NCBI GenBank assembly: GCA_031841125.1
Contig: CM063110.1
Span: forward strand, 54,721,946 to 54,785,945
DNA length: 64,000 bases
Source of the DNA: Acanthococcus lagerstroemiae
Taxonomy: Eukaryota > Arthropoda > Insecta > Hemiptera > Eriococcidae
Direction: 5' to 3'
Shown: positions 3,742-63,629 of the stretch, one piece after another
Layout of the letters: each line of letters opens with the position of its first letter
How positions within the stretch are numbered: the first letter of the stretch is position 1
Made by a program: the position numbers and the translations under genes
Notes under the pieces: generated by a model
The model's database searches: none
What the model saw: the letters and a program-made list of their open reading frames with translations, nothing else
What the model was told of the DNA's origin: nothing

Positions 3742-6700
3742 CACTGTAATTTGGGTTGGAACGACTAAAACGCCCAGAGGTTCATTGAATGGATTCATTG
3801 GAGGTTTGCATGAACGTTTGGTGTAAACGAGTTGCACAGTGAGCGGCCACCTGAAACAGGAATATAATATGAATTGTTGCTGTGACCATAAATGATCTGT
3901 TGCGTGTAAAATGTAACGTCGAGCTGTGTCGTCTCTCAGCGTTTCTTTAGTGCGAAATGGTAGTGCTTATTTTGCACCGTCCTTCTTTATTTGCTGACGT
4001 AGTCCCTCCATTTTCAGAAATCCTTCAAAGAGTAGTTGATATAATATGTGTTCCTTAGTTATCGACTAATCATAGTTGTGATGGTTATAGACAAACTTGA
4101 GAGCTAGTTCAGTTTGTTTATGAGCCTCGAAGCTTAACCATATCATTTCGTAATTCTAAAAAGAAAAGTGGCAAAATTACAGTGTTCCATCAACTGAGAA
4201 GGTAGCCAAACCATTGAAATCGTGATCCCAGAAGTAGGTTATCTTATAGAAGTCATATATCTCATTTTCGAGTACGCCTCCGGTTACACTATTTATGGTC
4301 CGGTTTTGAGCTGAAGTTATTTCAACTGAAAACAGGGATATCAATATGAGAAGGGGGAAAAAAGTGAAGGTAATACATAAGTAATTAATCGCCATGTGAG
4401 ATCAATAGGTTTGTAACAGGGTAAAATGAAGTAATAATCCCACGTATCCCATTAAGGGGACGCTGATTACTAATTTATAAATAGAGGGTGATTGTTTAAC
4501 AAGGAAACCGGCTTCGAGCTGCGCGGCTGTCGCCTGCGTATTAAAGCCACGCGGCGATATGGTAGCTCAAAGGGGAGGTATAACGGACAGCCATTTTGAT
4601 TGCAAGAAAAGTAACCAAACTAAAGCGCTAGATAGGAGAGTACGATCGTCCGCCATTTTAAATCTAACCGCGCCCGTCGATGCCGAATTGACTATGCGGT
4701 ACGCTCCGCATAGTCGGATTCGTCATCCACGAGCACGGTTGAAGTCAAAATGGCGGATGAGCGTACTTACAAAAAGTATACAGAGCTCCAGTTCCCCGAC
4801 ACGAATGTTGGACAAATGTGTAAGTACTGAGTGATCCCTTGTTGGGAAGAGGGGGAATTTGTGATCCTAAGGGAACTAGATTTTATTATTAATACATCCT
4901 GCTTGGTCTTACGACTCAAAAAATGATTCGGGTTAATACCAAACTAATCATGAAAAATTACCTCGTATCTCGCCACTGACGTCAATGCTGTAAGAGTTGC
5001 GTTGGGAGTGACCTATATAATCTATCGCATTTGGTTAAAATGGGCTCCCTTACTAGCGGGCGTGTGTTTTCCGCAGTAACTCTCAATTCTTGGGCATCGT
5101 TTTCCAGCAGAAATAAGTATGTGGTCGGTTAGCGAATTAATAAAATACGAATTTGGTGGCTTCATAATACATATAAAACCCCTAAGTCTTTACCTGTGCT
5201 TCCGGTATTTTTCACTATGAATGTTTCATAGTCGCCGACTGTGAAGGTAAGAGGACCACGAGTTTTCACTTCTGTTGCATAGCTGGTGTCTATATTCAGG
5301 GGAGCGTGCTTTGGCCCTCCAACGTACTCAGCTAACAAATTAAAAGTGAATGTGCGTCATTATATGCTCCGTCAGTACTTCAGGATTCTACACATACAAT
5401 ATCTACAATTTTTTTTATATTACTTGATCAGAAAGGCAATGTTTACTTTCGTGTTTTACGGGCGACAAGAAGCGCCTATCATTCATGCATCAAATGCTAA
5501 CGAAACCTGCATATAAAGTAAACGTCCCTCAGTGTAAAGCGTTTTTACATGAAATCGGGAAATCAAACCCGCGTCAATTGAAACATTTGACTGAAATGCA
5601 GCGATCGTCTCTAACCACTCGGCCACGGAGCGCATTACAAAATAGCGACTTAAGAACGCATTTAAATATTCACGACGTAGTACAGCTATTATCGTTCGTT
5701 GTTAACAGTCGTTACGTTTTGGCTGGCCACTACCTGTGTATGCTGTTTATGCACGTGAACAAACTGAAGACAAGACTGTGATACTGTACTTTGTAATAAT
5801 TAACTGAGCGAATTAAATTTTTGAATTAATTACGCACACAAAAATCACCTGTCTATAATTTAAATAAATAAATAGATTAAAAAATTTAAATAAGTACAGA
5901 CCATGTCAACGAAAAACATTGCCGCTTCTGATCAAGTTGTATTGAAAATATCTTCCACAACGAGCCAAAAGTGAGTTAACATGACTCGGGAATTACTCAC
6001 TCGCTACGCTCGTTCGCAAACTTTCCTTCGCCATGTAAATAATACTCACTTTTACTATTGCATTATGAAACAAGTGCCTCGGAAAGTGACTTTCAAATTT
6101 CGATGGCCAGTAATGTACCTCAAACGTGATGTACAACGACCGCGTCTTCGTTATCTTGGTTATAAATACACGCCTTCTGAGGATATGTTAGTGACACAGT
6201 GACATGTAACAGTAGTACATATTTAATGGCCTAATCTCATACTATTCACAGTTGGGAGTAGAATGTCAAAATGTGATAAAACTTCTTAAATTTATTTTCT
6301 GAAGAAAAAAAAAAAAAGAGTGACTGAGGTTAATATATTCTACTTCGAGTGTTGTATCCGGGGGTTTGGTTGGCCGAGTGGATAGCGCGCTGGTCTCGGA
6401 ATCCGGAGGTCCCGGGTTCGAGCCCACGCAGCAACTCGCTACGTGTCAACATAGGCCGGTTTTTCGGTAAGAAAAAAAGAGGGCTAAGACAGCCCTCTAA
6501 CAGCCTCTCCGGGCGGATTCCAGTGCTTGGGTTGAGAGTAAAATTAGGAGAGAGAAGGTGCTGTATCCGATGCCGAACGTTGGTGGTCGCGGTTTCTGAC
6601 GCGCGGCCCTCCTGGGCAGGTCAGTTGGAGTAGTTTTGCCGTTGCATTCCCCACGGTTTGTTGTCTGTTAGTTTTCCATCTCTGTGCCGAAGACTGTGAA

Positions 6701-9700: not shown

Positions 9701-11834
9701 GGCAGCCATCAGTGCGAAAAAATTAAACACGGTGCACGTTGGTATATTCTGTGGTGTTGGCTTGCTAAAAATATGCAGTTATTCAATACTTGTGATAATT
9801 ACTTCACAGATTGTTAGTGTAGTCTACGAAGGAAAATTTAGAGTACAGAAAGTCGATTTTCAGTGAAAAATCGTTATGCATAACCATATTAATTTCAGAA
9901 TTTTTGGGAATTATTTTATGGACGATACATAACATTTTTCAAACTATAAGAATTCAGGGTCTCTACTTTTTTCGGCAACAAATGTCACCCACAGTAAGCA
10001 TGGCAAAAGATGAGCAACTACGAAGGAATAAAAGTGGTTACACAACTTCAACGTGGCCTGTAGACCCTCTTAAGGAATCGAAATTTTCGGTAGCGCCCTG
10101 AAATGACTTGCACAACATATCTCTTTGACAAAAACATTCCGCATAGATTTTTTATTAGAAATATTTGTCTGTGTGACGCATTTTTAAGAAAATGTAAGTG
10201 GTTATGTAGACGAAGATGGAACTTTTAACCATAATTTGGCAGTTTGGGGATGTTAGGTCATGCATTCTGAACTCTGGTAGGCTGATGTGATAGGAGAGAT
10301 TTACACTTATCTAGCAAAAAAAAAGAAGAAAAATTATTGCTCTAACATTCTTAGCTCTTCAGATACCAAGCGTTTACTTAAATATTGAGTTACTGGGAAA
10401 ATAACACTAATTTCCTTTATAGACCGAATCGCGGGCTTGAATTCACTTCGTTGTCAAGAGAATAATCCTTAGTTTAAACTAAATGTTTCGTACGCTTTGA
10501 TAATTCAGAGGATGGCTATTGTTTCAATAGTAAAGGACCAAGAATGCCGCTGCAGTAGAAATCTTCTCGATAAGTTGACTAGGAAATGTTCGCGAAGCAT
10601 TTTTCAATAGGAACGGACTTTTCGGTCACCCCGTAGATGACAGAAATCTTTCGAATGGCTTAGAGTTACTTCTTCTATTTTATTCCCTCTCCATTTTTCT
10701 ACTTTTGTTATTCTTTCTTTTTTTTTTGCTTTTTGCTTTTTTTGGTCTGAAAATTCAAAATTTTGCCGCCCTAGGCAACTGCCTCGGTTGCCTCACGGTA
10801 AAAACGCCTCTGGGTGGTGTGTCTACAGCTCCAACCAAAATTCGTTAACGTATCGATTGGGAGTGACGTGCAGAATTTCAGATTGATGGTACTTTAAATT
10901 ATTACAAAATCATGGTACTAAAGTTGACCTAAAATTCCGCCAGGGGGAGCGGGAGAGGTGGTGAAATGGAGCTGTTTTAAAACCTCCAGACTTCGTTACT
11001 CACAAGCAGTCGCGGAGGAAACCTGTAATCACGCCCTCCCTAGTGGCGAAAATGGAGGTAAGGGGATCTTCATTAAAAAATCCGATAAAATGAAAAAATT
11101 GATATAAATATGAATAGCAATTAAACGGTTGAGATGCCCGGGGAAAACTCATTTCTTTAACATTTAACTATTTGAAGAGCACTAATAGATTGAGCGATCG
11201 TTGTCGACATTGATCGATGGTGGCGTAGTGATATGACCTCGTCCGAGGGTGGTCATGGTTGACGAAACGGCTTTCACATGGTGCAAGTAGACGGGTATCG
11301 ATTTACGGCAAACATACATTTCTGCTCTGCGTAGGCGGCTTTCCAGCAATTACATAACTGACATTAGTGAACGGCATCGTGGTGTATTCATCTTGGCCCG
11401 ACCCCAGCCCCGACGTTTGGGGCTAAGATTAATTCATGTTTGTGAATAAGGATGCACGATGTAGAATCACGCGGGCATATGAACCATAAACAGTTAGAAA
11501 GCGATAAATCACACGTAAACTACTTAACGGCGACTATGCCAAAATCAAGGCCGGAAAATGTGTGAAAATTAGAAAGACAGAGAAGAACCACACTGTCCTA
11601 AGGGCAAAAGCCAGATAAAGATGCCTCGTTTCGCTCCATACAGGCTTGCAAGGTTCCCCCCCCCCTTAACTTGAGGTGGACTACCTGCTGTTGAAATTCG
11701 ACAGTCGCTTTCCAAAACACCTTGTATTTAATTGTGATCATCAACTCACCAGCGCTGCAGTGGCTTTCTGAGAACGTGGATGGGATGTGTTGTTGCAAAG
11801 CCAGACAAAATACGGCCACGATCGCGAACTTCAT
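3742..11834 (-). CDS. Gene D: secreted carbonic-anhydrase-like protein, 3' exons missing
   Basis: Minus-strand gene with CDS exons 11834-11750 (signal peptide MKFAIVAVFCLALQQ), 5331-5194, 4325-4181 and 3850-3742. Every acceptor is AG and every donor GT, and phases (1,1,2,0) match genes A and B. Exon 2 (QYVGGP-type start, here AEYVGGPKHAPLNIDTSYAT) corresponds to the QSPIDIDT region of alpha-carbonic anhydrases; exon 3 holds VTGGVL and KITYFWDHDF in place of QFHFHWG; exon 4 holds WPLTVQLVYTKR in place of AELHLVHWN. The expected zinc histidines are Thr104, Phe106 and Val131, and the second-shell Glu is Gln129. Exons 5 and 6 are absent from 1-3741, so the copy is either truncated or continues beyond the retrotransposon outside the window. 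The first four frames are intact, so decay, if any, is recent. Recognition of the family is strong; expression is unknown. Confidence 0.75.
4639..4791. mobile_element. Foldback MITE, copy 1
   Basis: Almost the whole element is an imperfect palindrome: GTACGATCGTCCGCCATTTT on the left is mirrored by AAAATGGCGGATGAGCGTAC on the right, and the middle (CTATGCGG...CCGCATAG) folds on itself. It lies in intron 2 of gene D. Related copies are at 24709-24858 and 51131-51304. Confidence 0.7.
6360..6590 (+). mobile_element. tRNA-derived SINE, family 1, copy 1
   Basis: A tRNA-like head carries an A box (TGGCCGAGTGG, 6371-6381) and a B box (GGGTTCGAGCC, 6414-6424). It is followed by a non-tRNA body with CCGGTTTTTCGG and AGAGGGCTAAG. 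The same head and body occur on the minus strand at about 32940-33182, which marks it as a dispersed SINE rather than a tRNA gene. The TGGCCGAGTGG A box resembles Ser/Leu-type tRNAs. Confidence 0.75.
6795..7665 (+). repeat. Dispersed repeat X, copy 1
   Basis: Unclassified repeat with landmarks GCTATTGATCTGT near 7037, GGGGGCTGAAGACAT near 7280 and TTTCAGTCGGCGGGGG near 7405. Copies with the same landmarks in the same order lie at 48110-48860 and 54215-55240. No coding domain or terminal repeat was recognised. Confidence 0.55.
8355..8404 (+). repeat. Two-copy 25-bp tandem repeat
   Basis: The unit GACGAACGCATTTTCGTAG plus GACGGCG-type end occurs twice in direct succession with essentially no divergence. 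Confidence 0.7.
8526..8892. mobile_element. MITE with CAGGGTGTCTACTGG termini
   Basis: Terminal inverted repeats CAGGGTGTCTACTGG and CCCAGGAGACACCCTG enclose a body rich in GTCAAGGAA repeats. The immediate flanks share ATTGT (8521-8525 and 8893-8897); a full 8-bp duplication is not visible, so the superfamily is only probably hAT. It is nested in the 2.8 kb element. Confidence 0.6.
9301..9661. mobile_element. hAT-type MITE, nested
   Basis: The left end CAGGGACGTATGG is mirrored by GTGTGTCCCTA on the right. Flanks GATGCGAC (9293-9300) and GATACGAC (9662-9669) agree in 7 of 8 bases. The inside is repetitive, with poly-G, poly-C and GGGAATTTT / AATCCAACA repeats. Confidence 0.6.
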
Positions 11835-24396: not shown

Positions 24397-27300
24397 TTAA
24401 TAGGATATGGGGAGGATTTTTTCTACTATTCCTGTAGCTTGTTTGAGGTTTCGTCCTCTGGATGGATACGCGGTCTGAACAACTTCAATCGGCTTTCCTG
24501 CACTATTCAGAAGATTTGTGAAAGCTGCGAACTGTAACAGAGAGTGATGGATAATGATATTGGACCCATTAAATTTGTTAAACACACCCCTACTGGAGTG
24601 TCTCGAATTCATGCGCGGTGGAACTCTTTCCTTTCAAAATCTTCAGTTCTGTAATTTTTTTATAATGAAGGTGTGAAGAATTCTGTCTTTGACCTCTTGC
24701 CAGCTATACTAGAGCTCTGTATACCTCGTGTAAGTACGATCGTCCGCCATTTTGACTTCAACCGTACCCGTGAATGCCGAATCCGACTATGCGGAGCGTA
24801 CCGCGTAGTCAATTCGGCATCGACGGGCGCATTTGGATTCAAAATGGCGGCGTAACTTCTACCTGAAAGTATTTTTGTCACGTTTCTCCAAAGATAAGGT
24901 TTCCCAAAATGAAAATTCCCTGGAGCAGGCCTGTCCATCGCCTTTTGTCGTTTGAAGTTCCACCGTTCATGCTCGAATTTTGTCACTGAAAGTTGTACGA
25001 AATTGGAAGATGGCGATATTTGAGGTTCAGTACCTGGCAGATGGATATGTAGCCGGTTTTACTTTTCGGAACCAGGAGGTATATGGCGTCGTAACATATC
25101 GTACTGTTCTCGGTCACATCGTAGTACGTTCCGGAGTACGAATAGTAGAATGGATAATTCAGCGAGGTCTGATCGTACCAAGCACATACGGTATCGCGTA
25201 CCGAGCCTTTGATCGGGTACGAGGAACCAGCTTTCGTTAGGTTCTGAAGTACGTACTCGAATTTAGAGAACTGGGGATTCGGAACGGCTCCTTCCTAAAC
25301 CGTCAATTCAGAAATTAATATTAGTCGAGTTTCCAGTTGCATTTGATTGTTTCGGTACCTATGTGTTGAGGAGCCGTAGGAGAAGGAAAGCTTACCACAC
25401 TGATTTGAACTCGAATGACCAAAATGCCTTCTGGTTGGCTGTACGCGTTCTCAATGGATCCGGATGACTGTTTGTAGTAGATGAACTCAGCACTGAGCGG
25501 GAATCTGGAACACGAATATTCAAATGAAATTCGTAGCTGAGTTTATGAATGAAAACGGCTACCAATAGACACGAAAATCAGCAGGAAGGATATGCTCGTA
25601 ACTGAGAAAATAGATGTCGTCTTGCATATTTTGTAGGTTAATTTTTTACGCTTGGACTGTCAAAATGTTCTCCCACGAATCGGTAATGCCATGGTTTGGC
25701 GAAGTGGTTAGCTGATCAGTTCGTTATCAAAGTCTTCTAGATAAATCGCTTATGTCTTCAGAGTTCAGACTTTTTTGTAGTATCAACTTGATTATTCCAG
25801 TGCTTCAGGTAAATCTCGAGAAATCGGGAATATTATGTTCAGTTTGTTTGTAACGTTCGGAGAATTTTCGTATCATTGCTTATAGTGGATAAGTGTAGAA
25901 AAAAACAAACGAATAGACTTACTCAGATCGATCAATTGAGTAAGAAGCATCTCCAGCAAAATCGTGGTCCCAGTAGAAACGTAATTTATGGAATACATAA
26001 ATATTCTTTCCAAGTACGCCTCCACATATGATGTTACCGGTTTTTGGTTGATTTACGATTGCTTCGACTGAAATATAAGACTTTGGTTTTAGAGAAAAAT
26101 TTGTAAATTGGTACCAGGTCCGTAGCGAAGCTAATTTATGGAAGCAGCGTTAATCAAAAAATAATGTTCAACTATTGAAACGTAAAGTAAAACAGAGTCC
26201 CTGAAATTGTCAAATCCCCCCCCCCTCCGGTCAATCCTGAAATGTGATTGGAAACTCGAACTGCCCAGGCCCCGTAGCTACGGCCCTGGTGTGTATTCGA
26301 TATTTTATGGTACTTAGTGCCGAGCTTATTGTTAAACCTGCTCTGGGTGCGTCTTCATTAATGAACTGAGCCTTGTTGACATATTGAACCACCCAAAGCG
26401 CCCTAGGTCATTGGTGAGGGGTAAGTTTCCTTGAGAAGCTGATACAGGATGCAATATATGATAACTTCTACCACCAATACTGGATGCTATTGATTTTTCG
26501 GTTCAAGTTAAGTATGGGCCCTTTCCATTATGGGGCCAGTCCTGTCAACTAGTGCAATTAAATCTAATCAAAGCAAAATAGAAAACTTTCCGGATACAGG
26601 AAAGACACCACTCTCTAGGGATACAATACGTTATATTGCCCTTTCCTGTTGGACAGGCGAAACAAGAGCAGATCGAGTACACGAGAGAGTAGACAAGTAC
26701 GTAATGAAGAAGGGGACTCAGTACCGGGCTAGGGCTGTGGTTGACAAAGGTGGGTTGGACTTGAGATACTGCAGTACCGGGTAATGCATGTTATTCAGTT
26801 TCTTCTCATCTCCATGTCTACCTGACCCACTCTCTTGTACTGTCTGATAGTTATGGTACTTTTGAGCATTTCAAATCGTTGATTCTTGGGTAAAATGTGA
26901 TTTCGTCCTAATTTGGCATCAGTTTACCTCTGCGGAGCTGCTCGCCATTCCTATGGAAATCGTCAGATGCACTATCGTCTTAATTTTGTACGAGTTAACC
27001 TTCCTCGGGCTTCTGACTCTTCTTATGGAAATCGTCTCCAATCTTGAATATGGGATTGATTGGCAAATAAAAAGAATTTTGTCTAAGGAGAACATCATAA
27101 AGAATTCGGTATATGTGCTGAATGGCAAGATATTAAGATCTTTCTTACCTGAACTTCCTGTATTTTTTATTAAAACATGCTCATTGTCGGCTACTATGAT
27201 CGTTAGTGGATCCACAGTCGGTACTTGTGTTGCATAGCTGGTGTCCACATCGATGGGGGCGTACAAAGCTCCTCCAGTATATTGATCTAAAAATGCGAAG

Positions 27301-30300
27301 TAAAAGCGAGTTGTTACATAAACTATCGATGCAACAGAGATTGTGATTTGACTGCCGAAAAGTTCAACAGTCAATAATTCGTCCAAAACGAAGGTTACCT
27401 AAACTTGGGTCTTGCTTGACTTAGTTATATATCTAAAGGTTCCAGTGGCGTAGCTAGGGGTTTCCCAAAGGAGGGGGGGGGGCACAATAAGGTTTCCAAG
27501 GGAGAAAAAGTCGAAAATTGAGGTATTTTTTAAAAGTCGCCGATATTAAAAAACTATGTAAAAATAATGGGGGGGGCACGTACCCCCTCGTGCCCCCCGA
27601 GGCTACGTCACTGAAAGGTTCTCAAAATGTGATGCCAAGAAGCCGCCAAGATTTTCTTAATACTTGGGTGAATCCAGTGTGACTCACTGTGGGAAGTAGA
27701 CGGTCTAAAGTTTTCTTTGAAAATGGTAAAGCATAAATGATGTTTAAATTTCCTGTCCTAGCGCCATGTCTGGACCTCTGGAGGTCGATGTCGGCGTAAC
27801 GATCATGTGGCATACTGAGTACAGTAGTCAGGGCAGTTTGCCAGCACGTTCGTCATAGTTTGTTGTTGAGTTAGAGCATTGCTTTTTTTATGTCAAAAAC
27901 GTGACTCACAATATTGAGTTTTTGACCCACAAGACGCACAATACTGCACCTATCCTTCAGATACTCTGAGAACTGGCTCACGACTGCAGAGCAGGCTATC
28001 TATCCACCTGGATTGGTACTGTGGTTATAATGTTCGCTACGATGTTTACGGGGAGAGAGTTGAAAACTGTTCTCCAGGTTCCCTGAACTGGGAATCGAAC
28101 CGACGTAGAAGGTTCTCGCTGTACAATCCATTCATACATACTTTAAAAAAAAAAATGGAAACCTGCATTTTTAAATGAAGGATGAAATTAACGTTCTCGA
28201 AAACTGCCTGTTACGCCGAATCAAAATTTCTGGATATCTAGTTGTTAATTTGCGAGAAATAGTTTTCACCGCAGTTTCTTTATACTGACATGTTGGTGAG
28301 AGCTCTTTTTCTTTTTATACGTCTCAACTTCACAATCAGTTGAAGTCGTGAAGTTCATATCCTATGCGCCAGATTTTTCAAAAGAGGTTTTTCATCGTAA
28401 ACTGTTGTGAATACTGTTGCCTATACAATACAATAATATATTACGTGGCCGTGTAGCCTCAAGGTATTTCTAATTTCAGCCATAAGATCGCAGCACGCAT
28501 ATATGTGTCGAGCGCTCAATCCATGCAAAACATCTTTACTGTTACAAAACTTTTGATAAGAATATCTGTCTCGAGATTGTCAGTTTGCAATTACTGGGTC
28601 AATTGACCTTGATGACATTTGGGATGTTTTGCCTAATATTTTGATGGTTTCGGGATGTGCACTACTTCAGCCCTTATTTTCTCATTTTGAGGATGATTGA
28701 AGCCCAAAATTCTTCAATGGTCATGTATACTAGGCTTCAGAGAATTGATGGAGTATTCAATTTGCCCAACCCATTTCCTTCCTCCCAATGAAATAGTTTT
28801 TTGCTTATCCCGTAAAATTTTTAAATCGCTACATAGGATAGTTTGAACTTTACGCTTTTAGTTATGGAGTTTTATAAGTTGAATTTTCTGCATCTGCCAT
28901 AACCTACCTGTTCTACTTATCTACGTTGTATCGAAAAGTAGAAAAGAAGAACTTACAGTGCCGCCATCTTGTATATGATTGTACAGAACTCGACTTGGAC
29001 AATTCCTCTCAGTTCTCACCATCTGGGATCTGTCCTAGTCGCATTCGGCCCTCGTCTCATCCACGTCCTGCCCGACCCTTTTTCCTTTATTTAAAAACTG
29101 CCCTTTCATCGCCCCCTATTTTCGTCCTTTCCAATCGTCCCTGGTGAAGTCATATTAGCACAGTTGCTGTTTTTGTAGTTTCCTGTCATCCTTTCATCAC
29201 TAATCTTTATGATTCGGATAGATCTTCACGTCTTCTTTCGCTCGTCATTGTGTTTGCCCGTTTTCGTGTGATTTTGATTTTTTTTCTATAGGCACGTTTA
29301 CATCTGACAAAAACAGGCAAGCCAGTGCCAGGTATGCGTGCTAGTGTGGACGTGTTAATGCGCGCGAGCATCCACATCTGAATGCAAACAAGGTAAGAAG
29401 CTGAGGTCCACATCTGAACGCAAACAAGGTAAGAAGCTGAGGCGAGGAATGCGTGCTAATGTGGATGTGTTAAGGCATGTCCACATCTGAATGCAAACAA
29501 GGTAAGAAGCTGAGGCGAGGAATGTGTGCTAATGTGGATGTGTTAAGGCACATTCCCACATCTGAACGCGAACAAGATAAGAAGCTGAAGCGAGGAACGC
29601 GTGCTAATGTGGATGTGTTAAGGCACGTCCACATCTGAACGCAAACAGGGTAAGAAGCGGAGGCGGGGAATTCGTGCTAATCCACATCTAAACGCGAACA
29701 AGATAAGAAGCTGAGGCGAGGAATTCGTGCTAATGAGGACGGGTTACCAAGGTGTGGCAAACTACCTGAGGCTGTGCGGGGTTCAGCCCAAGACTGAATG
29801 AACACTTATCACAAGTTGGTACTTCAAAGAGAATTTTGTACAAAATCATTCAGATATGGATGTCATATTGTTCAGATGGAACGTTGCCGAACGCTGCTTC
29901 ATTTAGTGCCTCGGCAAATGCCGAACAAATCTACCTGGTGCCCGCACGAGGCATTCGGATCATAAATTCTACAACTTGTCAGGCTTAACCCTCAGTGCCA
30001 GTACATGACGATGTATTTTGCACCCAACATTTAAGAACCCGAACTTTTCACTTATTGCAGCTACAATAATGAGCCCGAGTGATTTTAGTTATCCACAACT
30101 ACAGCTCATTTATGTAAAATTGCTATAAATTGTACAGTGGGGGACAATAAATGTTTGTATTTTACCCTCGAATTTGACAACGCTGGAGTCATTACTTTTG
30201 AAACGAAGCGTAGTATGAAGATAACATTTTTTTTAAATTACTGAACCCGTGTGTATTTAGCGGAATCTGTCAACTCACCCGTACTGCATTGGCTAACGGA

Positions 30301-30363
30301 TACCGACAGTGGTATATGTTGTTGCAATACCAAGCAAAAAGCAGCCACAATCGCGAACTTCAT
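24397..30363 (-). CDS. Gene A: secreted catalytically dead carbonic-anhydrase-like protein
   Basis: Complete six-exon gene: 30363-30279, 27286-27149, 26067-25923, 25504-25396, 25294-25034 and 24531-24397 (stop TAA). All introns are GT-AG, and phases are 1,1,2,0,0. The predicted protein has 290 residues: a signal peptide (MKFAIVAAFCLVLQQ..., cleavage near 22-25), then a carbonic-anhydrase-like fold. Landmarks are YTGGALYAPIDVDTSYAT (for QSPIDIDT), CGGVL (for KGGPL), KLRFYWDHDF (for QFHFHWG), SAEFIYYKQ (for AELHLVHW), YSQPEGILVI (for QQPDGLAVL), YYSYSGTYYD (for YTYPGSLTTPP) and AYPSRGRNL near the C-terminus (for NWRPAQPLKNR). The three zinc histidines are Arg104, Tyr106 and Ile131, and the catalytic Thr199 position is Tyr. 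A signal-side Cys (SQC) and NSTIC could form the disulfide of secreted carbonic anhydrases. NSTIC also offers an N-glycosylation site. Hydratase activity is not expected. Confidence 0.87.
24709..24858. mobile_element. Foldback MITE, copy 2
   Basis: Left arm AGTACGATCGTCCGCCATTT and central palindromic CTATGCGGAGCG...CGCGTAGT match copy 1; the right arm is cut short after AAAATGGCGGCG. It lies in intron 5 of gene A. Confidence 0.65.
26115..26288. mobile_element. Possible MITE in intron 2 of gene A
   Basis: The ends CAGGTCCGTAGCG and GTAGCTACGGCCCTG are inverted copies of each other, and an internal poly-C tract resembles other MITEs here. The 8-bp flanks differ, so target duplication is not seen. 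Confidence 0.4.
27443..27613. mobile_element. hAT MITE (CAGTGGCGTAG family), perfect 8-bp TSD
   Basis: 171-bp element starting CAGTGGCGTAGCTAGG and ending GGCTACGTCACTG. Both flanks are AAAGGTTC (27435-27442 and 27614-27621), a perfect 8-bp target duplication as made by hAT transposases. Related elements are at 36334-36509 and 54869-55027. Confidence 0.88.
27880..28140 (-). mobile_element. tRNA-derived SINE, family 2, copy 1
   Basis: On the minus strand a degenerate tRNA-like head (GGTTCGATTCCC B box, near 28090) is followed by a body with landmarks shared by two other copies: GACCCACAAGA, CTTCAGATAC and GAGAACTG. The other copies are at 45380-45660 and 62705-62995. Confidence 0.5.
29310..29750 (+). 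repeat. Minisatellite of about 85-bp units
   Basis: About five to six imperfect units, each with CCACATCTGAA, GCAAACAAGGTAAGAAGCTG, GGCGAGGAATGCGTGCTAA and TGTGGATGTGTTAAGGCA. CCACATC and GATGTGG within each unit are inverted, so single strands could fold. The units vary in length because some lack the GTGGATGTG part. It sits in intron 1 of gene A. Confidence 0.8.
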
Positions 30364-34427: not shown

Positions 34428-35910
34428 TCTATCAACCCTCTCCTCCTGACTTCTCGGGTCAATATTTAAATAAGTAGATTAGAGGGGAGGATTTGGACTT
34501 TTGAATGATATAATGTATCGCTGACTGATTATCACGATGCGCTGGCGTTGCAAACGAGAAATGTAATGTGGTACTGACATAAGAAAGGGGACGTGGGTGG
34601 ATTAAATCTACACCTTCCATTGGAGATTCAGAGTACCAGTAAGTTAATACATTCATTTCGTGCTTCTTTTCCTTGTCATTGATACTCGGATATATTACCA
34701 GTTGTGGAGTTCGGTACTGATGTTTGTGGTACTTGGTCTGCTCTGGTGAGGGCTGTACCTTTTAAAGTGTACCCCTATCCTTACCCTGCTTGACTTGTAT
34801 CACCTGGGTGTGCGGCCATTTTAATGGGACTATTTTTCAGCGATTCTGTGCATAGGTCAGTCAGTGACTTTTACGAATTCTACTAAGAAGTAAAGACTCG
34901 GTAAATATGCCCGCGAATAGACGGTGAATGTAAAATCCTTAAAACTTTCCTGTGTGCAGTTTTATTATTTTTCGTAATCTGCAGTCGTGCATGTGAAAGG
35001 AGTCGCACTGACTACTTCTGATGCGTAGCTGGTGTCCAAATTGATGGGTGCGTACAAAGCACCACCAGTACATTGATCTCAGAAATTGAAATTGAAGGCG
35101 AGTAGGAATATGCAGTAAGACCTCGATAACTCAAAACTCAAGGGAAACCGCATTTTACTCCGAAGTGACCGATTCTCGAACTTTCGTAATTTAAGATAGC
35201 GAAGGTCACAGGTTCAGTTTTCGAGTGCACGTAAGTTTTATTTTGTAAGTAAGCCTTTTCGTTGACCAAACCTGATAACGTGGCTGGTAATTTACGGCCT
35301 GTGAGTAGATACCGATACAAATGACAATTGAATATTTATTGACTAATTGATAAGTACTCCTCAGGAATTAAGGAAGGTGAAAAGTTCAATTGCAGTTTTT
35401 GACATTTTGTGCGTACATATAGAAACATTCGCGTCAGCATTTGATCGAAAATTCGAGTAACGTAGTTTGAATGACGTCAACTGTGGCTTACAAAGGTATC
35501 ACATACTGGGATTTCAAGTTGTAGAGGTACCATGAGGCTAACTTCGACTCACATTTTTCAAGATACACTCATTGCATAGTTACGCTGCAGCTTCGATTGA
35601 TTTGGTTAAAGATTAAATCGGAGAGGATCAGGCAGATTGCGTCCCATTTTACACACGGGACGCAATTCAGTAGTACAGATTGCATCCCAAAGGACAAAAA
35701 AAAAAGGAGATTGTAAGCCTGTTAGCATGAACCAGGAGACATCACGTAGAGGTCAGCTTACGACGTCTTCCAGAAGCAAAGCTTTGCACTTTGCTTCGTC
35801 ACTAAAGAAAGGTGCGTAAAATATGTTTGAAGGTAGGAACTTCATGGACACAATTTGACGTATTCAGGTGTCGATATTTCGGCATTCTTTAACTGCACCA
35901 CGAAAGTCTT

Positions 35911-36240
35911 TCAACGTGTCAGGAGGTAAGAAAGGTAATCCGAAAATGAGCGTGGATAAGAACCCTCAGCGGAAGCACTCTTGTAAAGTGTCGATAAGCC
36001 TAACTTTTGAATTTTTCGGAACCAGGCTTGGCACAAGTGGAACCGGCAGCACCTGATGACACTCGACGGCCATACAGATTCCAGTGCCGCGTGAATGGCT
36101 TGCTCGAAATCCACGTACAGTAGTGCTGGAGCATAATTCGACGGCAAATAGACTTCCAACTTGCGAAGAGCAATCAGTACTGTCGTCACTTTTTCTATCC
36201 GGGACGCAATCAGTATGAAAAAGAACTGGGCTCGGGACAC
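35911..36240 (-). mobile_element. MULE-type transposase fragment
   Basis: About 110 residues with YVDFEQAIHAALESVWP and CCRFHLCQAWFRKIQKLGL, matching the DDE-region pattern of Mutator-like transposases: an Asp/Glu-bearing strand, then C-x2-H, then a helix with a basic-KxxxLGL end. It has no matching N- or C-terminal parts, so it is a fragment. It lies inside intron 1 of pseudogene E. Confidence 0.65.
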
Positions 36241-36333
36241 AATCTGGCTGAAGCCAATCGAAGCTTACAAAAGAGATTAGTTCGGGTAAACTGTTGAGCT
36301 GTACATAACTGATTTGAGGGTTTCGATTGTAAC

Positions 36334-38225: not shown

Positions 38226-38310
38226 CAGGATTGCAATCGCTAGTAGGGAACGTGGATGGGATATGATGTTGCAAAGCCAAACAAAATACTGCCACAGTTG
38301 TGAACTTCAT

Positions 38311-44087: not shown

Positions 44088-46560
44088 TATTCCTCTTTAC
44101 GCGGTCATTCGATCCATCATGTTTCAGCAGGCTGACACGGAGAATGCCGAGCGATAACGAGGATGAACGACGAGCAGAGGCATTGGAATGTGAGTGTGTC
44201 CGTCAGCATAGTCGCCTGGGCGACATACGCATTACGCATGTAATGATGTCTTCCATACAGTAATCAAAATTTTGCAGGCTTTATATTTTGCGGACGTACT
44301 ATTTATGAGCCCGGTATAATGTTGGAATTTGAAAAATATTTTTGGTTCCATCCTAGTGTGCAATGTGTCTATTATCCAGCCGAGCTGAGATTTTCAATAA
44401 ACTGCCTATCTAGCTCATGGTATGATAAACTGCGTGGCTGTACTCCCAATTCAAAATTTGGAGAAATAAACGATTATATTGTCCAATAAGTTGTGGGAAC
44501 TCAAAATAATAGGTATCTATTTCAGGCATACAAGCGAATTATTTTCTTAGCCTATGTTCACAGCGTAGTAATAGTGTAATCTATAATGGGTACATGAAAT
44601 TCGTTCCAGACATACTGTTCGTAATTAAATCGATGGAAAATTCTATTGATGTCAAATCAAATCACTATAACACGCAGTTAAGTTTCTTTTACCCAGCAAC
44701 ATGAGCTCACAAGCAACTTCACAAAAGGTGGATATGATTTATCAGTTGGTTTTATATTTTTCAAAGGGTGTGTAGTAAACAATTTCCTTTATACCCACAG
44801 CTTGTGAGATATTGAGTCCTCTGGATGGATACGCGCTCTGGACATTGGCAATTGGTTTTCCAACATAGTTCTTTAGGTTTGTGAACGCCGTGAACTGTAA
44901 CACAGAGTAGTTAATTGAGTGTTTGAAACAAGCGAGTTGAGTTTTAGAGACATAGTTTAGATTTTTAACGGCTCAAGAAATCCTGTTTTGAAATATCTTC
45001 TCTTTTTCCTCTAAGAGGTCATATCAGTGTCGCAACGTGAATGACTGTAGCGATCATATCATTCTGCTAAATAGATCGGATAACCCGGTCGTTCACCATT
45101 GTTTTCCTCACCATTTGTTACTTTATAGTATATTTCCTTCTCTGTGTCAAAACCCTGTGTATGTGAATCATGACCCGACTGACAATTTGGAAAGCACTCA
45201 CATAACATATCACAAACCCCTACCGTGTTGAGACTTTTGGCCAATCACTTTTTTTTTTTGTGAGTGTTCAACATCTCATCATTTTAAGATAGTGTGTGTG
45301 AAGTGATCGCTCAGCATTAGTCTGATTACTGAATGATGTTCACAAATGCACTCACAATTGGCCTCATTGTCAATCGGGTACTATCTTTATGCCCCGCAAG
45401 ACACACGACACAGAACCAATCCTTCAGATACGGATGATACTGTATTCTGCGAGCATAACGCCTTGCTCCTGAGAACTGACTGAGGGACTGCAGATTTCGC
45501 TATCTATTCTCCTTGACTGGTACTGGGATAGCTCTGTTCCCATGGTTGTTCGTGGAGTGACCGATGAAAGCTGTTCACTACGTTCCCGGCGCAGGGATTC
45601 GAACCCGCGCCGCATAGATGCGAGGCGGCATAGCATTACTCGATCAGAAAGGGAGAAAACCCCAATTTAACCCGGTAGTCTCAGCTGGAGAAAAACTAGG
45701 GAACAGGAAATAATGGTTGGGCAGTGGTGAGTTATCTCAAGTGGTCGTGATTCATGTACAATGTGGGTCGCGACTGTTTATAGACAAGTAAAATACTAGT
45801 AATTTGAGGTACAATACCTGGCAGATGGATACGTAGCCTGTCCTACTCTTCGGAATCAGGATATATATGGCAGAGTCACACATCGTGCTGTTATTTTGAC
45901 TCTGATCATAGTATGTTCCGACATAGGAGTAATAGAATGGATAATTGAGTGCGACTTGATCGAAGAAACCGTAAATAGTTTCGCGTACTTTTCCATATAC
46001 CACGCTCGAAGAGCCAGCTTTTGTTATATTTTTAAGTACGTTCTCGAATTTGGTGAACTGGGGATTTGCGATGGCCCCTTCCTAAACGGTTGTGCAGAAG
46101 TATTAGCACAATTTGCAGTATATTTATTGCATGGTTTGTATTTATGTAACACTCGGATGTGAAGCAATCATTACCACAGCAATTTGGTCTCGAACGACTA
46201 CAATGCCCAGTGGTTGTGCGTATGCCTTTTCTAAAGATCCACATGAACGTTTGTAGTAAACAAGTTCCGCAGTAAGCGGCCACCTAAAACGGAAATATAA
46301 TATGAATATTGTGACTGTAACTATGAATGATCTGTTGTGTGTAACATATAGCCCCAAGCTGGGTCGTCTGTCAGCATATTCTTTAGTGCGAACTGGTAAT
46401 GCTTCTTTTGCATAGTCATCTTTTATTTCTAAAAATCTTTCAAAGAGTAGTTGATATACGTGTTCCGCATAATTGTGGCGGTCAGAAAGAAACTTGAGAG
46501 TTAGTTCTCAGTTTGTCTGTGAGGCTCGAAGCCTGTTCATATCATTACGTATGTAGTATG
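44088..46560. repeat. Segmental duplication, left copy
   Basis: Starting at TATTCCTCTTTACGCGGTCA, this block matches 61639-64000 nearly throughout, including introns, a SINE and exons 4-6 of genes B and C. The pair probably extends past the window edge. Confidence 0.85.
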
Positions 46561-49500
46561 TAGTTCTAAAAAGAAAAATAGCAAAATATTACGGTGTTCC
46601 ATCAACTGTGGAGGAAGCGAGACCATTGAAATCGTGAGTCCAGTAGTAGCGTATTTTGCCGAATGCATAAACGTCATTCCATAGTATGCCTCCAGTTACA
46701 CTGTTTATGGACGTCGGTTGATTCAAGGTTATTTCAACTGGAAAAATGGATGTCAGTTTGAGAAAATGAAGAGTGGAGGTAATACCTAGGTGATAAATCG
46801 TGATGCGAGAGCGATAGGTTTGCAGAACCGGGTACAATGAAGGAATGATCCCACGTATCTCATTAAGGGGATGTCAGTTGCTAATTAATGGATACATTAA
46901 GTATTTTAAACTTTTTTTCCCCTTTTTTTCCCAAACCCATATTCCCGTACGTTGGCCGTTATCCTGGAACCTGGTGCCGATGTCTTGAGTACTTGTGGAT
47001 CTGTGGTGGTAGTCTGCTTTCAGTCATAAGGAGAGGTGCAACTACGAGTATTTGCTAGGCGCACTGCATGCTGACATCACTATGGTGGTTTGCCTTTTAA
47101 AAACCTCCAGTCGTCGTCTTATTTAGGGTAGAGAAGGGATAAATTTACAATTCCCGTTGCCCGAGTTGAATACGTGAGAACTCTGTGACCCCCTTTTTGG
47201 GAGGAGGGGGTTGTGATTCCAAGAGAACCTAATTTTACTGTCACAAGATCCTATTTGGTCTTATGTTGATTTGCTCGAAAAAACTGATCGTGGTCTATAC
47301 CGACTGAATCAATCATATAAATTTATCTCAGGCCTCACCAGGGACGTCTATGCTGTAAGTGGGTAAGTGTTGCCTTAGGATTGGCCGCACCTATAAAGTC
47401 GTATTACCTTTGAGTAAAATGTACTTCTTTACTACATGCATGACTTGAGTTTTCCGTAGCGGCTCGTAATTTTTGGACACTTTTTTAACAGCCCAAAATA
47501 AGTGTAAGGCCGGCTAGCGAATTGATCGAACTTTGTTTTGAAAATCCGAAACTGTCGGCTTCAATAAATGATAGGGAAATATAAAACCCATAAGCGTTTA
47601 CCTGAGCTTCCGATATTTTTCACTTTGAACTGTTCCCAGTCGCCGACTGTGAAGGTAAGAGGAGTTGCGATTTTCACTTCTGTTGCATAGCTGGTGTCCA
47701 GATTGATCGGGGCGTACTTTGGTCCTCCAACATATTGAGCTAAAAAATAAAACGTGAACGTGCTTCGTTAGTACTTCTTCAATATATTAGAATTTGTACA
47801 TTGTGTAGGAAGTGCTTCGGTAATTGATTTCCGAATTCCCATAGTCAATAATACCCCCCCCCCCCCGAGTGTCGTTATCTTAGTTACAAATCTATGCGTT
47901 TCAGAGATGTGCTATAGATAAGTTGACTTGTGACAATGGTACGTATGTAATGGCTTAACATGGTATTCACACTGGGGAGTAGAAAGTTTGAAAAAAAAAG
48001 TCGTGATCACACTTTTTTAATGCATGTTCTACGAAAAAAAGTGCAAGAATTTTAATAGGACTGTGGCTAATATGCTCCAGGTCTCAGTAATATTTTCATT
48101 CCAAGTTAAGTCGAATAGAAAGTGACACCCTCTGCCATTGATCTCTGGGATTCTGACCAAATTTATAGCATAGATTCCTGTCTGTCCCAATTATTTGCCT
48201 CTAAAAATGTTTTGCCAAGTATTAGTTCTTTCCATCGTAAGTCAGATTTCAAAAACCATAAACCAAGAATATACATATCGCCAAACTCCCTCATTTGTTG
48301 GAATGTCTTAGTCAACATACCATAATTTTGTACACATTTTACACCATGTTGTATCAGCGGGAACAAATTTTGTGCCCAGCCCTCTGCTGTGATACTGACA
48401 AATCCCACGGAGGCTGAAAACGTGCTGCTCCACGTTTTTGGAGTTCAGGTCAAATTCTGCATCATAATTTTGTATGTATGTACTAATTTGATACCATTTT
48501 GTGCCGCCATTCCCGAATTTTATTTCCAACTTTCTCTAGGAATATCCACTAATTTCAGTCGGGGGGCTGAAGAAATGGTAAGCCCCAAGTACAAAAATGA
48601 GCTTAAAATTGATGATCGGTCCAATGTTGGAATGAAATTCCCAATTGTGGATGGAATAATTTCGTTAGCAATCTGACTGAAATCCGTGAGTACTTCGAGA
48701 GGGAATGAAGTACAAAAATCTGGAATGACTGTACTAAATGGCAAAAAATATGCACAAAATGACGATGTCAAAAATAACCGAGAATCTTAACCTGTGTTGC
48801 AGCATGTTTCTTGCTGTCCAGTGGAGATGGTATGTATTGAGAGTGAATTAACGGTAAAAATGGAACGAAATAAGTACAGAATAATGATACCTATATTGAG
48901 CTGCCCCTTCTGTGTATGCTACTTTAATGTGGTTAGGGGGTTTAAAAATAAAAACTAAAATCACGTTAGGAGAAGGAAAACTCCGACAGATAAACCCTGT
49001 TGAGAGCCAGGTGAAACTATATCAGTATTTTTCTCAAGAGATATATTGTGATGGCAACTCACGAAGCAAAAAATAATAATTCCGGACGTAAAAAATCTCC
49101 TCTTCGGAATGAGGGATGGAGACTGCCGGGTGAGAAACTATCAGAATTGAGAATAGGGACGTGGAATGTAAGGACATCTGAATGAGGCAGGCAAATTAGA
49201 AAACCTTGAAGATGCAGTCGATAACCTGCAGAAATCATTGGTAAATATAACAAAATGGGCAAGAAAATGGAAAATAGCCCTCAACGAGAAAAAGTCAGTT
49301 CGAGTAGACTTTGCTCTTCGCCAACACGGATATGTTCCGTCGAACATTGATGGTAAACCAGTACCCTTAGCCAACTCAGCAAGCAGAGGCGAAACTTGAC
49401 TTTCAGTTGAGAGAGGGTAGTGGAAAAGGAAAATTTGCCGACAAAATATTTTTTTTAAGTAAAAATTCGCCGACAACATTTTTCAATCAAAATCTATAAA

Positions 49501-52500: not shown

Positions 52501-53879
52501 TGCTTTCAACTTTTAGATTTTAATAAAATGTTCAACTTTCTCAAATTTCAGGCTGTTTATCATACAGAGAATTTAGGAAAAACCGAATAGTCATTGAAAT
52601 TCGAAGTTCAACTTTTGCTACCGACTTTCAGATTTTCGAAATGTCTTCCACATTTCAGCTTTGTTTCAACCTTTCAGATAACTTTCGATACTCAGCTTGA
52701 AACCTTCGGCTTTTGACTGACTATTCTCTGACAGGAGTCCAGGGTACTTCATTTTCAGAAACGAAGTTTGATTTTCAGTTTGGGGAGGTGGAGAAGAAAA
52801 ATTTGCCGACAAATATTTTATGAACTAAAATTCCCGACAAATTTATTTGGGATAAAAATGAACCAAAAAAAAGAAAATTAATGAACTACCGGCTAATTGG
52901 GGGCCCAAGTGTCAAAGGTACCCGGTCTGGACTGCACTCGCGGTTGAGAATTTCGAAGAAGCGTAACTAGAGCTCATAACTTCGCGAGTGATTTGTAATT
53001 GGCCGCCGTTCACTACCGCGTGGAATTCGGACACGGTAGTTGAAAAATGCGAATTTGACGACAAAAGTTCTACAAGCTCTAGCGTGAATAACTCAATTTA
53101 TTATCAAGGAAATATTACTGGATGACTGGTCACTGATCAGCACCCTCACTCCAAAATAAGAAATTAATCTACACATCCATCCTAAAGCCAGTTTGGATGT
53201 ACGGAATTGTGATGTTGGGGACCGCCAAACCCTCAAACTGCCAAATCATACAACGGTTCCAGAATAAATGCCTCCGAATAATTACTCGAGCTCCTTGGTA
53301 CATACGGAATGACCAATTTCACCTTGACCTAAATTTTAGAAACAATTGAAGAAGCATATATACAACAGCTACTAAGAGATATACAGCTAGGCTGCACCAT
53401 CACAGTAACATCAAGGCTATCCAGATACTTCATCCTGTCGGACAATGGAATCGGCTAAACTGCAGGAATATCCGCTCGACTTCGTACACATAAATAGCAA
53501 TTATGAAAACGACCTGAAGTCTTGTAGAGTCTATCTGTGTTCTTTGGTGATAAACGAAATCTTTTGTAAATACGTAACATATATGTAGCTCAAAAATATA
53601 CTTTTAAAAAAAAAGAAGAAAGGTTGCAACATGGACTTATTCGAAAACTTCCAGGCTTTGTTACAAACAGTCGGAGGAAACCTCTGTAATCGTGCAAGCT
53701 TACCTTTTTTCTACGTTTGAGGTAGACTATCCGCTATTAAAGTCGATAGTCGCTTCCCAAAACACCTTGTATTTAATTGTGATCATCTACTCACCAGTGC
53801 TGCATTGGCTCACTGAGAACGTGGATGGGATTTGTTGTTGCAAAACCACGCAGAATACGACCACAATCGCGAACTTCAT
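44742..53879 (-). CDS. Gene B: secreted catalytically dead carbonic-anhydrase-like protein
   Basis: Complete six-exon gene: 53879-53795, 47739-47602, 46737-46593, 46283-46175, 46081-45818 and 44894-44742 (stop TGA). GT-AG introns have phases 1,1,2,0,0. The predicted protein has 297 residues. The signal peptide starts MKFAIVVVFCVVLQQQ; then come QYVGGPKYAPINLDTSYAT, VTGGIL, KIRYYWTHDF, WPLTAELVYYKRS, AYAQPLGIVVV, YYSYVGTYYDQSQNNST and AYPSRGLNISQ. Zinc-ligand positions are Arg104, Tyr106 and Val131. Exon 3 could be misread as ending at a stop (CCGTAA), but GTAATA there is the donor in the same phase as in gene A. Intron 1 (6 kb) is packed with repeats. Splice sites are predicted by comparison between copies, not by transcripts. 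Confidence 0.87.
45380..45660 (-). mobile_element. tRNA-derived SINE, family 2, copy 2
   Basis: Minus-strand head with B box GGTTCGAATCCC (45605-45594) and a matching GCGCGGGTTCGAATCCCTGC arm. The body shares CTTCAGATAC, GCTCCTGAGAACTGACT and CTATCTATTC with copy 3 at 62705-62995. It lies in intron 5 of gene B; the copy in gene C occupies the same place, so insertion preceded the duplication. Confidence 0.65.
48110..48860 (+). repeat. Dispersed repeat X, copy 2
   Basis: Shares CATTGATCTCTGGGATTCTGA, TTTCAGTCGGGGGGCTGAAG and AGAGGGAATGAAGTAC-like landmarks with copies at 6795 and 54215. Its CCACTAATTTCAGTCGG stretch is the uninterrupted form of a site occupied by a MITE in copy 3. Confidence 0.55.
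49175..49390 (+). mobile_element. Jockey-type LINE fragment, 5' part
   Basis: The plus strand reads LQKSLVNITKWARKWKIALN, EKKSVRVDFALR and GKPVPLANSA, the region after the FADD motif in Jockey-like reverse transcriptases (WxxxWRIxLNExKSxxVxF ... ANSAKYLG). It ends at NSA and resumes at 53133 after 3.7 kb of foreign DNA. Confidence 0.7.
50190..51290 (+). repeat. Tandem duplication, left copy
   Basis: Starting GGATGTTAGGAATACTTGAG, about 1.1 kb is repeated at 52155-53100 in the same orientation. The first 700 bp are almost identical; afterwards similarity is patchy (GAAGCGTAACTAGAGCTC is shared). Confidence 0.85.
51131..51304. mobile_element. Foldback MITE, copy 3
   Basis: The longest arms of the family: AGAGCTCTATAACTTCGTAT and GAGTACGATCGTCCGCCATT on the left are mirrored on the right (GACAATTGTACCC, ACAAAGTTATAGAGCTTG). 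The middle contains inverted GGATGCCGAA / TGGCATCCAC words. Confidence 0.7.
51292..51420 (-). repeat. GC-rich dispersed repeat, second copy
   Basis: The reverse complement matches 2880-2995, next to the gag relic (CTCCTCCGCGGACC, CGGGTCCCGCT). It abuts foldback MITE copy 3. Confidence 0.7.
51810..52145 (+). repeat. 112-bp tandem repeat with palindromic core, three copies
   Basis: The core ATGGCAACTTGGCGGATCGC, ending TCCAAGTACGCTAT, starts at 51873, 51985 and 52097, an exact spacing of 112. The part ACTTGG-CGGATCGCCT-CCAAGT is palindromic. Core sequences are identical; the spacers (CTTCGGTCGTGYCGGTGAAG and similar) vary more. Confidence 0.85.
52155..53100 (+). repeat. Tandem duplication, right copy
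   Basis: Copy of 50190-51290, starting GGATGTTAGGAATACTTGAG, with small deletions toward its right end. In place of the foldback MITE it has a diverged relative (52967-53090) keeping AGAGCTCATAACTTCG and a shortened inverted structure. Confidence 0.8.
53133..53480 (+). mobile_element. Jockey-type LINE fragment, 3' part
   Basis: The plus strand reads LIYTSILKPVWMYGIVMLGT, IQRFQNKCLRIITRAPWYIR and NDQFHLDLNFRN, then after a stop and frame change RLHHHSNIKAIQIL. This is the C-terminal region of Jockey-like LINE ORF2. It continues the fragment at 49175-49390 after a gap of about 45 residues. Confidence 0.75.
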
Positions 53880-56215: not shown

Positions 56216-56287
56216 CTCTCTCTCTCTCTCTCCCTCTCCCCTCTCACCATCTCCCCTCTCCCCCTCTCTCACTCACACACACACACT
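56216..56287 (+). repeat. CT-rich then CA-rich microsatellite
   Basis: (TC)n, CTCTCCC variants and (AC)n in direct succession. Confidence 0.85.
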
Positions 56288-56997: not shown

Positions 56998-57066
56998 CTG
57001 TAATATTCTGACAATTCAGGTTCTCTCGTTCATTGGACTCATCGGACTCAGCTTTCTTCGATTTAT
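56998..57066 (-). CDS. Possible isolated exon of unknown gene
   Basis: On the minus strand, TTTCTCTAG is followed by 69 bp open in phase 1 (KSKKAESDESNERENLNC and NIT at the end) and then GTAAATA. Acceptor, donor and symmetric phase fit an exon, but no neighbouring exons were recognised. It may belong to a gene carried by the surrounding GCAGC-rich block. Confidence 0.25.
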
Positions 57067-57069
57067 CTA

Positions 57070-60697: not shown

Positions 60698-60699
60698 TA

Positions 60700-62278: not shown

Positions 62279-63629
62279 TCAGTTGGTTTTGTTTTTTTCG
62301 AATGGTGTGTAGTAAACAATTTCCTTTATACCCGCAGCTTGTGAAATAGCTCGTCCTCTGGATGGATACGCGTCCTGAACATTGGCAATCGGTTTTCCGA
62401 CATAGTTCTCCAGGTCTGTGAATGCCGTGAACTGTAACACAGAGTAGTCAGTTGAGTGTTTGAAATGAACGAGTTACTTTTTAGAGACATGGATTGGATT
62501 TTTAGTGGCTCAAGAAATCCTATTTTAAAATATCTTCTCATTTTCTTCTAAGGCCTATCGGTGACCTAATGTGGATGACAGTAGCAATCATATTATTCGG
62601 CTAAATGGGCCGGATAACCTGGTCAGTTTACTATTGTTTTCCTCTCAGTTTATTACTTTAGTATTTTTGCTTCTCGTTGCTGAAGACTTGTGTGTGTGAA
62701 TCGTTACTAGCCTTATGCCCCCCAAAATTGAGTAGGTGACCCACAAGATACACAACACAGCACCGATCCTTCAGATACAGATGGTACTGTGTTCTGCGAA
62801 TATAACACTTTGCTCCTGAGAACTGACTAAGGGGCTGCAGATTTTGCTATCTATTCCCCTCGACTGGTACTATAGTTGTACCATTCCCTTGGATATTCGT
62901 GGGAAGACGGATGAAAGCTGTTCACTAGTTTCCCGGCGCAGGGATTCGAACCCGCGCCGCAAAGATGCGACGTGACCCAGCATTACTCGATTGGAAAGGA
63001 CGAAAACCCCAATTTAACCCAATAGTCTCAGCTATAGAAAAACAAAGGAACAGGAAAGAATGGGTGGCCAGTGGTGAGTTATCTCAAGTGGTTGTAATTC
63101 ATGTACAATGTGGGTCGCCACTGTTCATATTAAAGTAGAATACTAGTAATTTGAGGTACAATACCTGGCAGACGGATAAGTAGCCTGTCCTACTCTTCGG
63201 AATCAGGATATATGTGGCAGAGTAACATATCGTGCTGTTATTTTGACTCTGATCGTAGTATGTTCCGACGTAGGAATAATAGAATGGATAATCGATTGCT
63301 ATTTGATCGAAGAAACCGTAAATAGTCTCGCGCACATTTCCACGTACCTCGCTCGAAGAGCCAGCTTTTGTTATGTTTTTAAGTACATTCTCGAATTTGG
63401 TAAACTGGGGATTTGCGATGGCACCTTCCTAAACCGTCGTGCAGAAGTATTAGCACAATTTGCCATAATATATTTATGTGTTTGTATTTACGTAATACCC
63501 AGATGTGAAGCAATCATTACCACTGCAATTTGGGAACGAACGACTACAATGCCCTGTGGTTGTGTGTATGCATTCTCCAAGGACCCGTATGACTTTTTGT
63601 AGTAAATGTACTCTCCAGTGAGTGGCCAC
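62279..63629 (-). CDS. Gene C: carbonic-anhydrase-like protein, 3' exons only (window edge)
   Basis: Exons 63629-63521, 63428-63165 and 62431-62279 (stop TGA) have the same lengths (109, 264, 153) and phases as exons 4-6 of gene B. They read WPLTGEYIYYKKS, AYTQPQGIVVV, YYSYVGTYYDQSQNNST and AYPSRGRAISQ, ending YYTPFEKNKTN. The third zinc histidine is Ile. Exons 1-3 should lie just beyond 64000, since gene B has 309 bp between exons 4 and 3 and the matching intron runs to the edge. A hand comparison of exon 6 with gene B gives about 9 nonsynonymous and 10 synonymous changes in 153 bp, which suggests both copies have been kept under purifying selection. Confidence 0.85.
62705..62995 (-). mobile_element. 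tRNA-derived SINE, family 2, copy 3
   Basis: Minus-strand head with B box GGTTCGAATCCC and GCGCGGGTTCGAATCCCTGC; it is at the same intron position as the copy in gene B. Confidence 0.65.

Follow-up and report, generated by a model that had tools for sequence, protein, structure and literature searches.

What becomes of an enzyme fold when the metal at its centre is lost, and can such a fold still be multiplied and kept? This question is raised by a 64,000-nucleotide stretch of DNA from the insect Acanthococcus lagerstroemiae (hereafter the window; C5:54721946-54785945 within a 658 Mb genome), which carries tandem genes of the alpha-carbonic anhydrase (CA) family without the histidines that bind zinc. 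Known inactive CA relatives are few and mostly retain part of the zinc site. Our reading, to which we give a probability of roughly 0.62, is that these genes belong to a clade of secreted CA homologues whose zinc site was lost no later than in the ancestor that the sampled copies share, which multiplied by tandem and dispersed duplication and whose products would act by binding without metal. If this is true, the fold has been retained without its metal and reused on a large scale (about 30 loci, with intact genes under selection), and the change can be tested by comparison with the zinc-retaining paralogues of this genome.

Translated self-comparison of the window revealed one exon set repeated on the minus strand. 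The gene model has six exons, with splice sites and phases that agree between copies, and the window contains four gene copies (A, B, D and E) and one dead fragment (C), all on that strand. B (exons from 30363 to 24397) and D (exons from 53879 to 44742) are complete, with GT/AG at all introns. A and E cross the window edges, with exons 1–4 of A and exons 4–6 of E inside, and both are intact once the exons beyond the window are added. Fragment C is a remnant comprising only exons 1 and 2, with GA in place of GT at both donors and two in-frame stops; a sensitive search for more of its exons found none of exons 3–6. An earlier annotation made without database searches, the sequence-only reading, had described five related minus-strand copies with the motif order of a carbonic anhydrase between positions 3742 and 63629. 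Splice sites, phases and the protein family model PF00194 all agree with the relationship and the motif order, and the two limits are the end of A exon 4 and the start of E exon 4. Of the five, four stand as genes, C being dead, and the family extends well past five members.

A larger array on C5 at 54.66–54.865 Mb includes the window; C5:54655000-54874999 was surveyed for it. The array totals eight intact genes, one gene with an unclear exon 1 (G2), a partial duplicate (G3) and one fragment. Of the additional copies, G1, G2, G3 and F lie on the minus strand, whereas G and H are plus-strand genes. The eight intact genes are G1, A, B, D, E, F, G and H: each is unbroken between its ATG and its stop, and GT/AG bounds all of their introns. 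The exon-1 donor of G2 is unclear. The exon peptides of G3 are those of G2, and G3 is not counted separately among the nine array genes.

The copies are members of the alpha-carbonic anhydrase family by descent. PF00194 is matched by B at 2e-17, by D at 8.3e-15 and by the part of A inside the window at 2.2e-8; the window part of E reaches 2.8e-4, which is below the curated cut-off, and the complete E protein 4e-17. The search of spliced proteins against PF00194 that the sequence-only reading had proposed gave matches above the cut-off for all eight complete array proteins (1.2e-12 to 1.8e-17), and five of five paralogues outside the array, joined from exons, match as well (6e-8 to 2e-14). Carbonic anhydrase II (CA II) is the top match among solved structures, at 7.3e-7 with D as query and 1.4e-10 with a four-row profile. 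Identity to CA II is 20–26%.

The zinc site is missing from every array gene. Alignment to CA II is free of gaps from Thr108-Val109-Asp110 to the QPxG turn, and position 119 is fixed thereby: B, D and E have Glu there and A has Gln, and the Ile or Val originally assigned to it came from a two-residue shift. The loss of His94 and His96, also proposed earlier, is borne out in A, B and D, the three genes with exon 3 in the window, where B and D have Arg94 and Tyr96, and A has Thr94 and Phe96. Across the array, positions 94, 96 and 119 read R-[YF]-E in eight of nine genes and T-F-Q in A, so that the zinc-binding histidines are absent from all nine. Glu106 is replaced by Ser, Thr or Ala, and His64 is also replaced, in 9/9; position 209 is Tyr or Phe. 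A Tyr at position 199 could not be established: a gap, Asn or Ser is aligned there and no gene has Thr, in a loop beside a long insertion where the alignment is uncertain. The motif W[DT]HDF noticed after the lost ligands is present, and over the array it widens to W[DTV][HQ][DN][FY]. Since the ligands are replaced, together with Glu106 and the shuttle residue His64, hydration of CO2 would be very unlikely, and the hydratase activity has presumably been lost.

The loss extends to the family outside the array. A genome search with D as query gave 79 matches at E≤0.001, of which at least 30 include exon 5: 10 of these belong to the array, and the other 20 lie elsewhere on C3, C4, C5, C6 and C8. 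Some are possibly dead. The residues of outside copies were read by eye, with Trp97 as the reference point in exon 3 and the Pro as that in exon 4, and position 94/96 or 119 was read in 11 of the 20 outside exon-5 loci. L023, L028, L058 and L061 have no exon 3 or 4 in the stretch examined and were left out with five other outside loci, and exon 3 of C4:37.36 (L063) was excluded from the residue counts. None of the 19 distinct copies with a readable exon 3 (9 array, 10 outside) keeps His94 or His96, and none of the 18 with a readable exon 4 (9 array, 9 outside) keeps His119; the 19 include C6:4.966 (L064), which yielded exon 3 only and is not among the 30. The earlier description of probably secreted, expanded and zinc-less CA homologues is therefore supported for the nine array genes and is extended by the readable outside paralogues, which are without ligands too. 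Scans of viral and genome contig collections found no relative. The ligand-binding exons of this genome's ecdysone receptor (EcR) match insect EcR chains at up to 1.8e-100 (PDB 4ozt), which marks the source as an arthropod. Bemisia tabaci was considered and rejected: its EcR chain 1z5x comes third, after 4ozt and 2nxx, and clearly differs, and an EF1-alpha primer from the literature (PMC8706854, Table 1) gave no exact hit.

What might hold such a pocket together is suggested by the residues that line it. Glu67 and Lys92 occur together in 9/9 array genes, and Arg94 and Glu119 in 8/9, with A altered at both of the latter (Thr94, Gln119). CA II has Asn67, Gln92, His94 and His119, positions that face its cavity. 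Since they do so, salt bridges may replace zinc as the core of the pocket: in the array, the old zinc cavity would be held by the charged pairs Glu67–Lys92 and Arg94–Glu119, and the fold would need no metal. Strict covariation of Arg94 and Glu119 as a general rule was considered and rejected; it holds in eight of nine array genes and in C5:4.63 and C5:18.45, and fails in the five C3/C4 paralogues with both sites read.

The proteins appear to be exported. All eight complete proteins start with MKFA and a stretch of hydrophobic residues, and nothing further along any of them looks membrane-like, as judged from hydropathy and a simple cleavage rule only; the signal peptides proposed earlier thus correspond to signal-like N termini on hydropathy. 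Cys246 is present in 9/9 array genes and Cys26 in the 8/8 with a read exon 1, a conservation that suggests the two probably form a disulphide, and each of the nine genes encodes at least two N-glycosylation motifs. The proteins would be secreted, glycosylated and tied by a disulphide, and would bind an extracellular partner (a glycan, a host or food protein, or a microbe) like other CA-fold pseudoenzymes.

By analogy with such proteins, we favour a secreted binding role. Alternative uses of the CA fold are binding roles, and the CA-fold envelope protein of poxviruses is an inactive fold used for binding. This envelope protein (IMV membrane protein; PDB 5ush, 4e9o) matches D over residues 37–262, compared with 33–185 for CA II. 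It is viral, however, and the resemblance reaches an E-value of 4e-5 only, whereas the present genes bear introns and lie on a eukaryotic chromosome. A wider proposal, which we hold only tentatively and think doubtful as it stands, is that the CA fold has been turned into the metal-free, salt-bridge-held scaffold of a large secreted binding repertoire (at least 30 loci), comparable in use to the lectin or odorant-binding families; its variable binding face would be either the old active-site cone or the outer loops. A narrower one, that the proteins are salivary or gut effectors, is suggested by analogy and strikes us as conceivable but rather improbable. The planthopper salivary carbonic anhydrase LssaCA, from a plant-feeding insect, is secreted and works by binding virus and plant proteins (PMC12774414), and CAs are listed among aphid salivary proteins (PMC13256243); the planthopper protein showed esterase activity when measured and is hence not a zinc-less relative. 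The titles and abstract openings searched describe no insect or arthropod expansion of this kind, a search that mostly fell outside subscription journals and leaves the absence unproven.

Inactive relatives of carbonic anhydrase are known elsewhere, and the present genes may be compared with them. In the broad sense, a carbonic anhydrase-related protein (CARP) is a CA relative without one or more of the zinc histidines (PMC2873310), a definition that includes the array genes by their ligand loss. PMC4981384 gives R/H/Y-H/R-Q/H as the pattern that would fit most database CARPs; R-[YF]-E and the other triplets of this family fall outside it. That paper also describes secreted cnidarian CARPs (CruCA2 and others) that arose repeatedly. 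They resemble the present proteins in histidine loss and, probably, in secretion and inactivity, and some stand in tandem with active CAs; unlike the present proteins, they have one or two histidines replaced, whereas here all three are replaced wherever all were read, within one large clade. CARP VIII, X and XI likewise have a CA fold without activity, several with Arg at 94, yet they exist in few copies and usually keep His96 (see also PMC4981384), which the array lacks. PMC4981384 is also in line with the sequence-only reading where it says that inactive relatives so far known retain some of the zinc site.

It is reasonable to ask whether the copies represent an expansion of CARP X-like proteins, inactive relatives of CA that occur widely among invertebrates. 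Arg94 is common to the array and the R-H-Q pattern of CARP X and others (PMC4981384), and CARP X-like sequences are reported from every insect and nematode genome that could be examined at the time (PMC2873310). The array, however, has Trp97 and lacks both His96 and the GSEH motif, and its triplet departs from R-H-Q. True CAs were sought in the genome with a CA II fragment only. This identified C8:10.16, which keeps His94, His96 and His119 (QFHCHW, QLHLVHW), and C2:9.82, which keeps His94 and His96 (QFHFHW), the exon with position 119 falling outside the reading. Two further genes, C8:3.84 and C7:1.83, have a CARP X look (HFG/HYG, GSEHT), a label based on human motifs. Among the 21 rows of a tree built on 97 columns, the 16 without the zinc site come together in a single clade (99/99) that stands apart from the two zinc-retaining genes, and the two CARP X-like rows group separately (98/94). 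Descent from CARP X is thus unlikely, and the simplest reading of the tree would be that the zinc site was lost once, before the expansion.

Might the proteins nevertheless be enzymes, either metal-free or with a metal on new ligands, in an esterase-like use of the pocket? Charged residues are conserved in the old pocket, there is selection on the protein, and a few histidines are left nearby: one lies two residues after Trp97 in seven of nine array genes, and F has His120 adjoining Glu119. These remaining histidines are not at ligand positions in the ungapped alignment, the 56 invariant array residues include no His and one Cys, and Glu106 and His64 are replaced throughout the array. We give continued catalysis little chance.

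The proteins are mostly under selection. The ratio of nonsynonymous to synonymous change (dN/dS) is below 1 in 36/36 pairs of the nine array genes (range 0.24–0.70), from which selection on most of the proteins follows, and D and E differ at 15% of sites in intron 4 and 18% in intron 5, against a proportion of nonsynonymous differences (pN) of 0.07. In a simulation with 0.1 substitutions per site, only 1.75% of runs left an unselected 297-codon frame open. That the copies are relaxed and functionless, pseudogenes in the making, has in its favour the remnant C, the missing clear donor of G2 exon 1 and the high dN/dS of A with D, E, G and H, but it is very improbable given eight genes whose frames are open throughout and whose introns all have GT/AG, a dN/dS below 1 in every pair and introns in D and E that have changed more than their nonsynonymous sites.

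Several observations weigh against a secreted, selected and zinc-less binding family as we have described it. Gene A stands out: its pairs with D, G, H and E have the highest dN/dS (0.55–0.70), the bootstrap range for A and D on the window exons is 0.44–1.06, their pN of 0.21 exceeds the difference of 0.175 in intron 3, and A has changed fast, at 0.47 from its fork versus 0.19 for D and 0.16 for E. A may be relaxed or adapting, and because of its high dN/dS and an intron 3 less changed than its nonsynonymous sites the case for constraint rests on the other genes. Even between D and E, only 8.8% of sites differ over 0.6 kb downstream, where the contrast with a pN of 0.07 is small. The salt bridges are read from the alignment alone; the joint change at 94 and 119 in A is a single case and weak evidence for a bridge, and the Arg–Glu pair is kept in 2/7 outside copies with both sites read (the others having Tyr-Thr, Tyr-Val, Gln-Asn, Thr-Arg and Arg-Ser). 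Nine of the 20 outside exon-5 loci are unreadable at the ligand positions, and the tree is limited by its long branches and by having only 97 columns.

Exons of the window copies and residues of the paralogues outside the array. Positions are those of the window unless a contig is named; triplets give positions 94/96/119, with a question mark where a position was not read.
Feature	Position	Strand	Basis
Gene A exon 1 (signal-like peptide)	11750..11834	-	splice models
Gene A exon 2	5194..5331	-	splice models
Gene A exon 3, KITYFWDHDF (Thr94, Phe96)	4181..4325	-	splice models + CA II alignment
Gene A exon 4 (Gln119)	3742..3850	-	splice models + CA II alignment
Gene A exons 5-6, beyond window	C5:54721051-54720785 and 54720306-54720163		
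Gene B exon 1	30279..30363	-	
Gene B exon 2	27149..27286	-	
Gene B exon 3, KLRFYWDHDF (Arg94, Tyr96)	25923..26067	-	
Gene B exon 4 (Glu119)	25396..25504	-	
Gene B exon 5	25034..25294	-	
Gene B exon 6 + stop (290 aa protein)	24397..24531	-	
Fragment C exon 1, broken donor GAGAGT	38226..38310	-	
Fragment C exon 2, two in-frame stops, broken donor	34950..35077	-	
Gene D exon 1	53795..53879	-	
Gene D exon 2	47602..47739	-	
Gene D exon 3, KIRYYWTHDF (Arg94, Tyr96)	46593..46737	-	
Gene D exon 4 (Glu119)	46175..46283	-	
Gene D exon 5	45818..46081	-	
Gene D exon 6 + stop (297 aa protein)	44742..44894	-	
Gene E exon 4 (Glu119); exons 1-3 right of window	63521..63629	-	
Gene E exon 5	63165..63428	-	
Gene E exon 6 + stop	62279..62431	-	
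Triplet R-I-E	C5:4.63 and C5:18.45		
Triplet Y-N-T	C4:44.37		
Triplet R-V-S	C4:50.70		
Triplet Y-Y-V	C3:42.746		
Triplet Q-F-N	C3:42.806		
Triplet T-Y-R	C3:42.726		
Triplet R-F-?	C6:59.33		
Triplet D-F-?	C8:46.20		
Triplet Q-F-?	C6:4.966		
Triplet ?-?-R	C6:4.944		
Triplet ?-?-N	C3:42.759		

Within the array, exons 1–5 are repeated about 5.2 kb apart in G2 and G3 (L034, L035; C5:54687141-54691272 and C5:54692352-54696507) with identical matched peptides, and the array survey found no exon 6 for G3; the pair arose by duplication very recently or else is a duplicate made by the assembly. On the plus strand at C5:54874041-54874123 (L046), two weak matches that resemble exon 1 (E 0.08 and 0.01) lie at the right edge of the surveyed stretch, past which the array may continue.

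Searches with Rfam at gathering thresholds and with ARAGORN gave no matches. Several traces of mobile elements accompany the window genes. Intron 4 of gene A is about 4.6 kb long, whereas that of B, D and E measures about 0.1 kb; the intron of A contains a gag-like open frame at window positions 78–1484 on the plus strand (PF03732 at 0.0045, below cut-off). Intron 1 of the dead copy C includes a MULE transposase domain match (2e-8) at 35914–36264 on the minus strand, and a reverse transcriptase match (6e-9) marks a fragment at 13794–14123 on the plus strand. A direct repeat is present at 50405–50867 and 52365–52824, with 98–99% identity and a spacing of about 1.96 kb.

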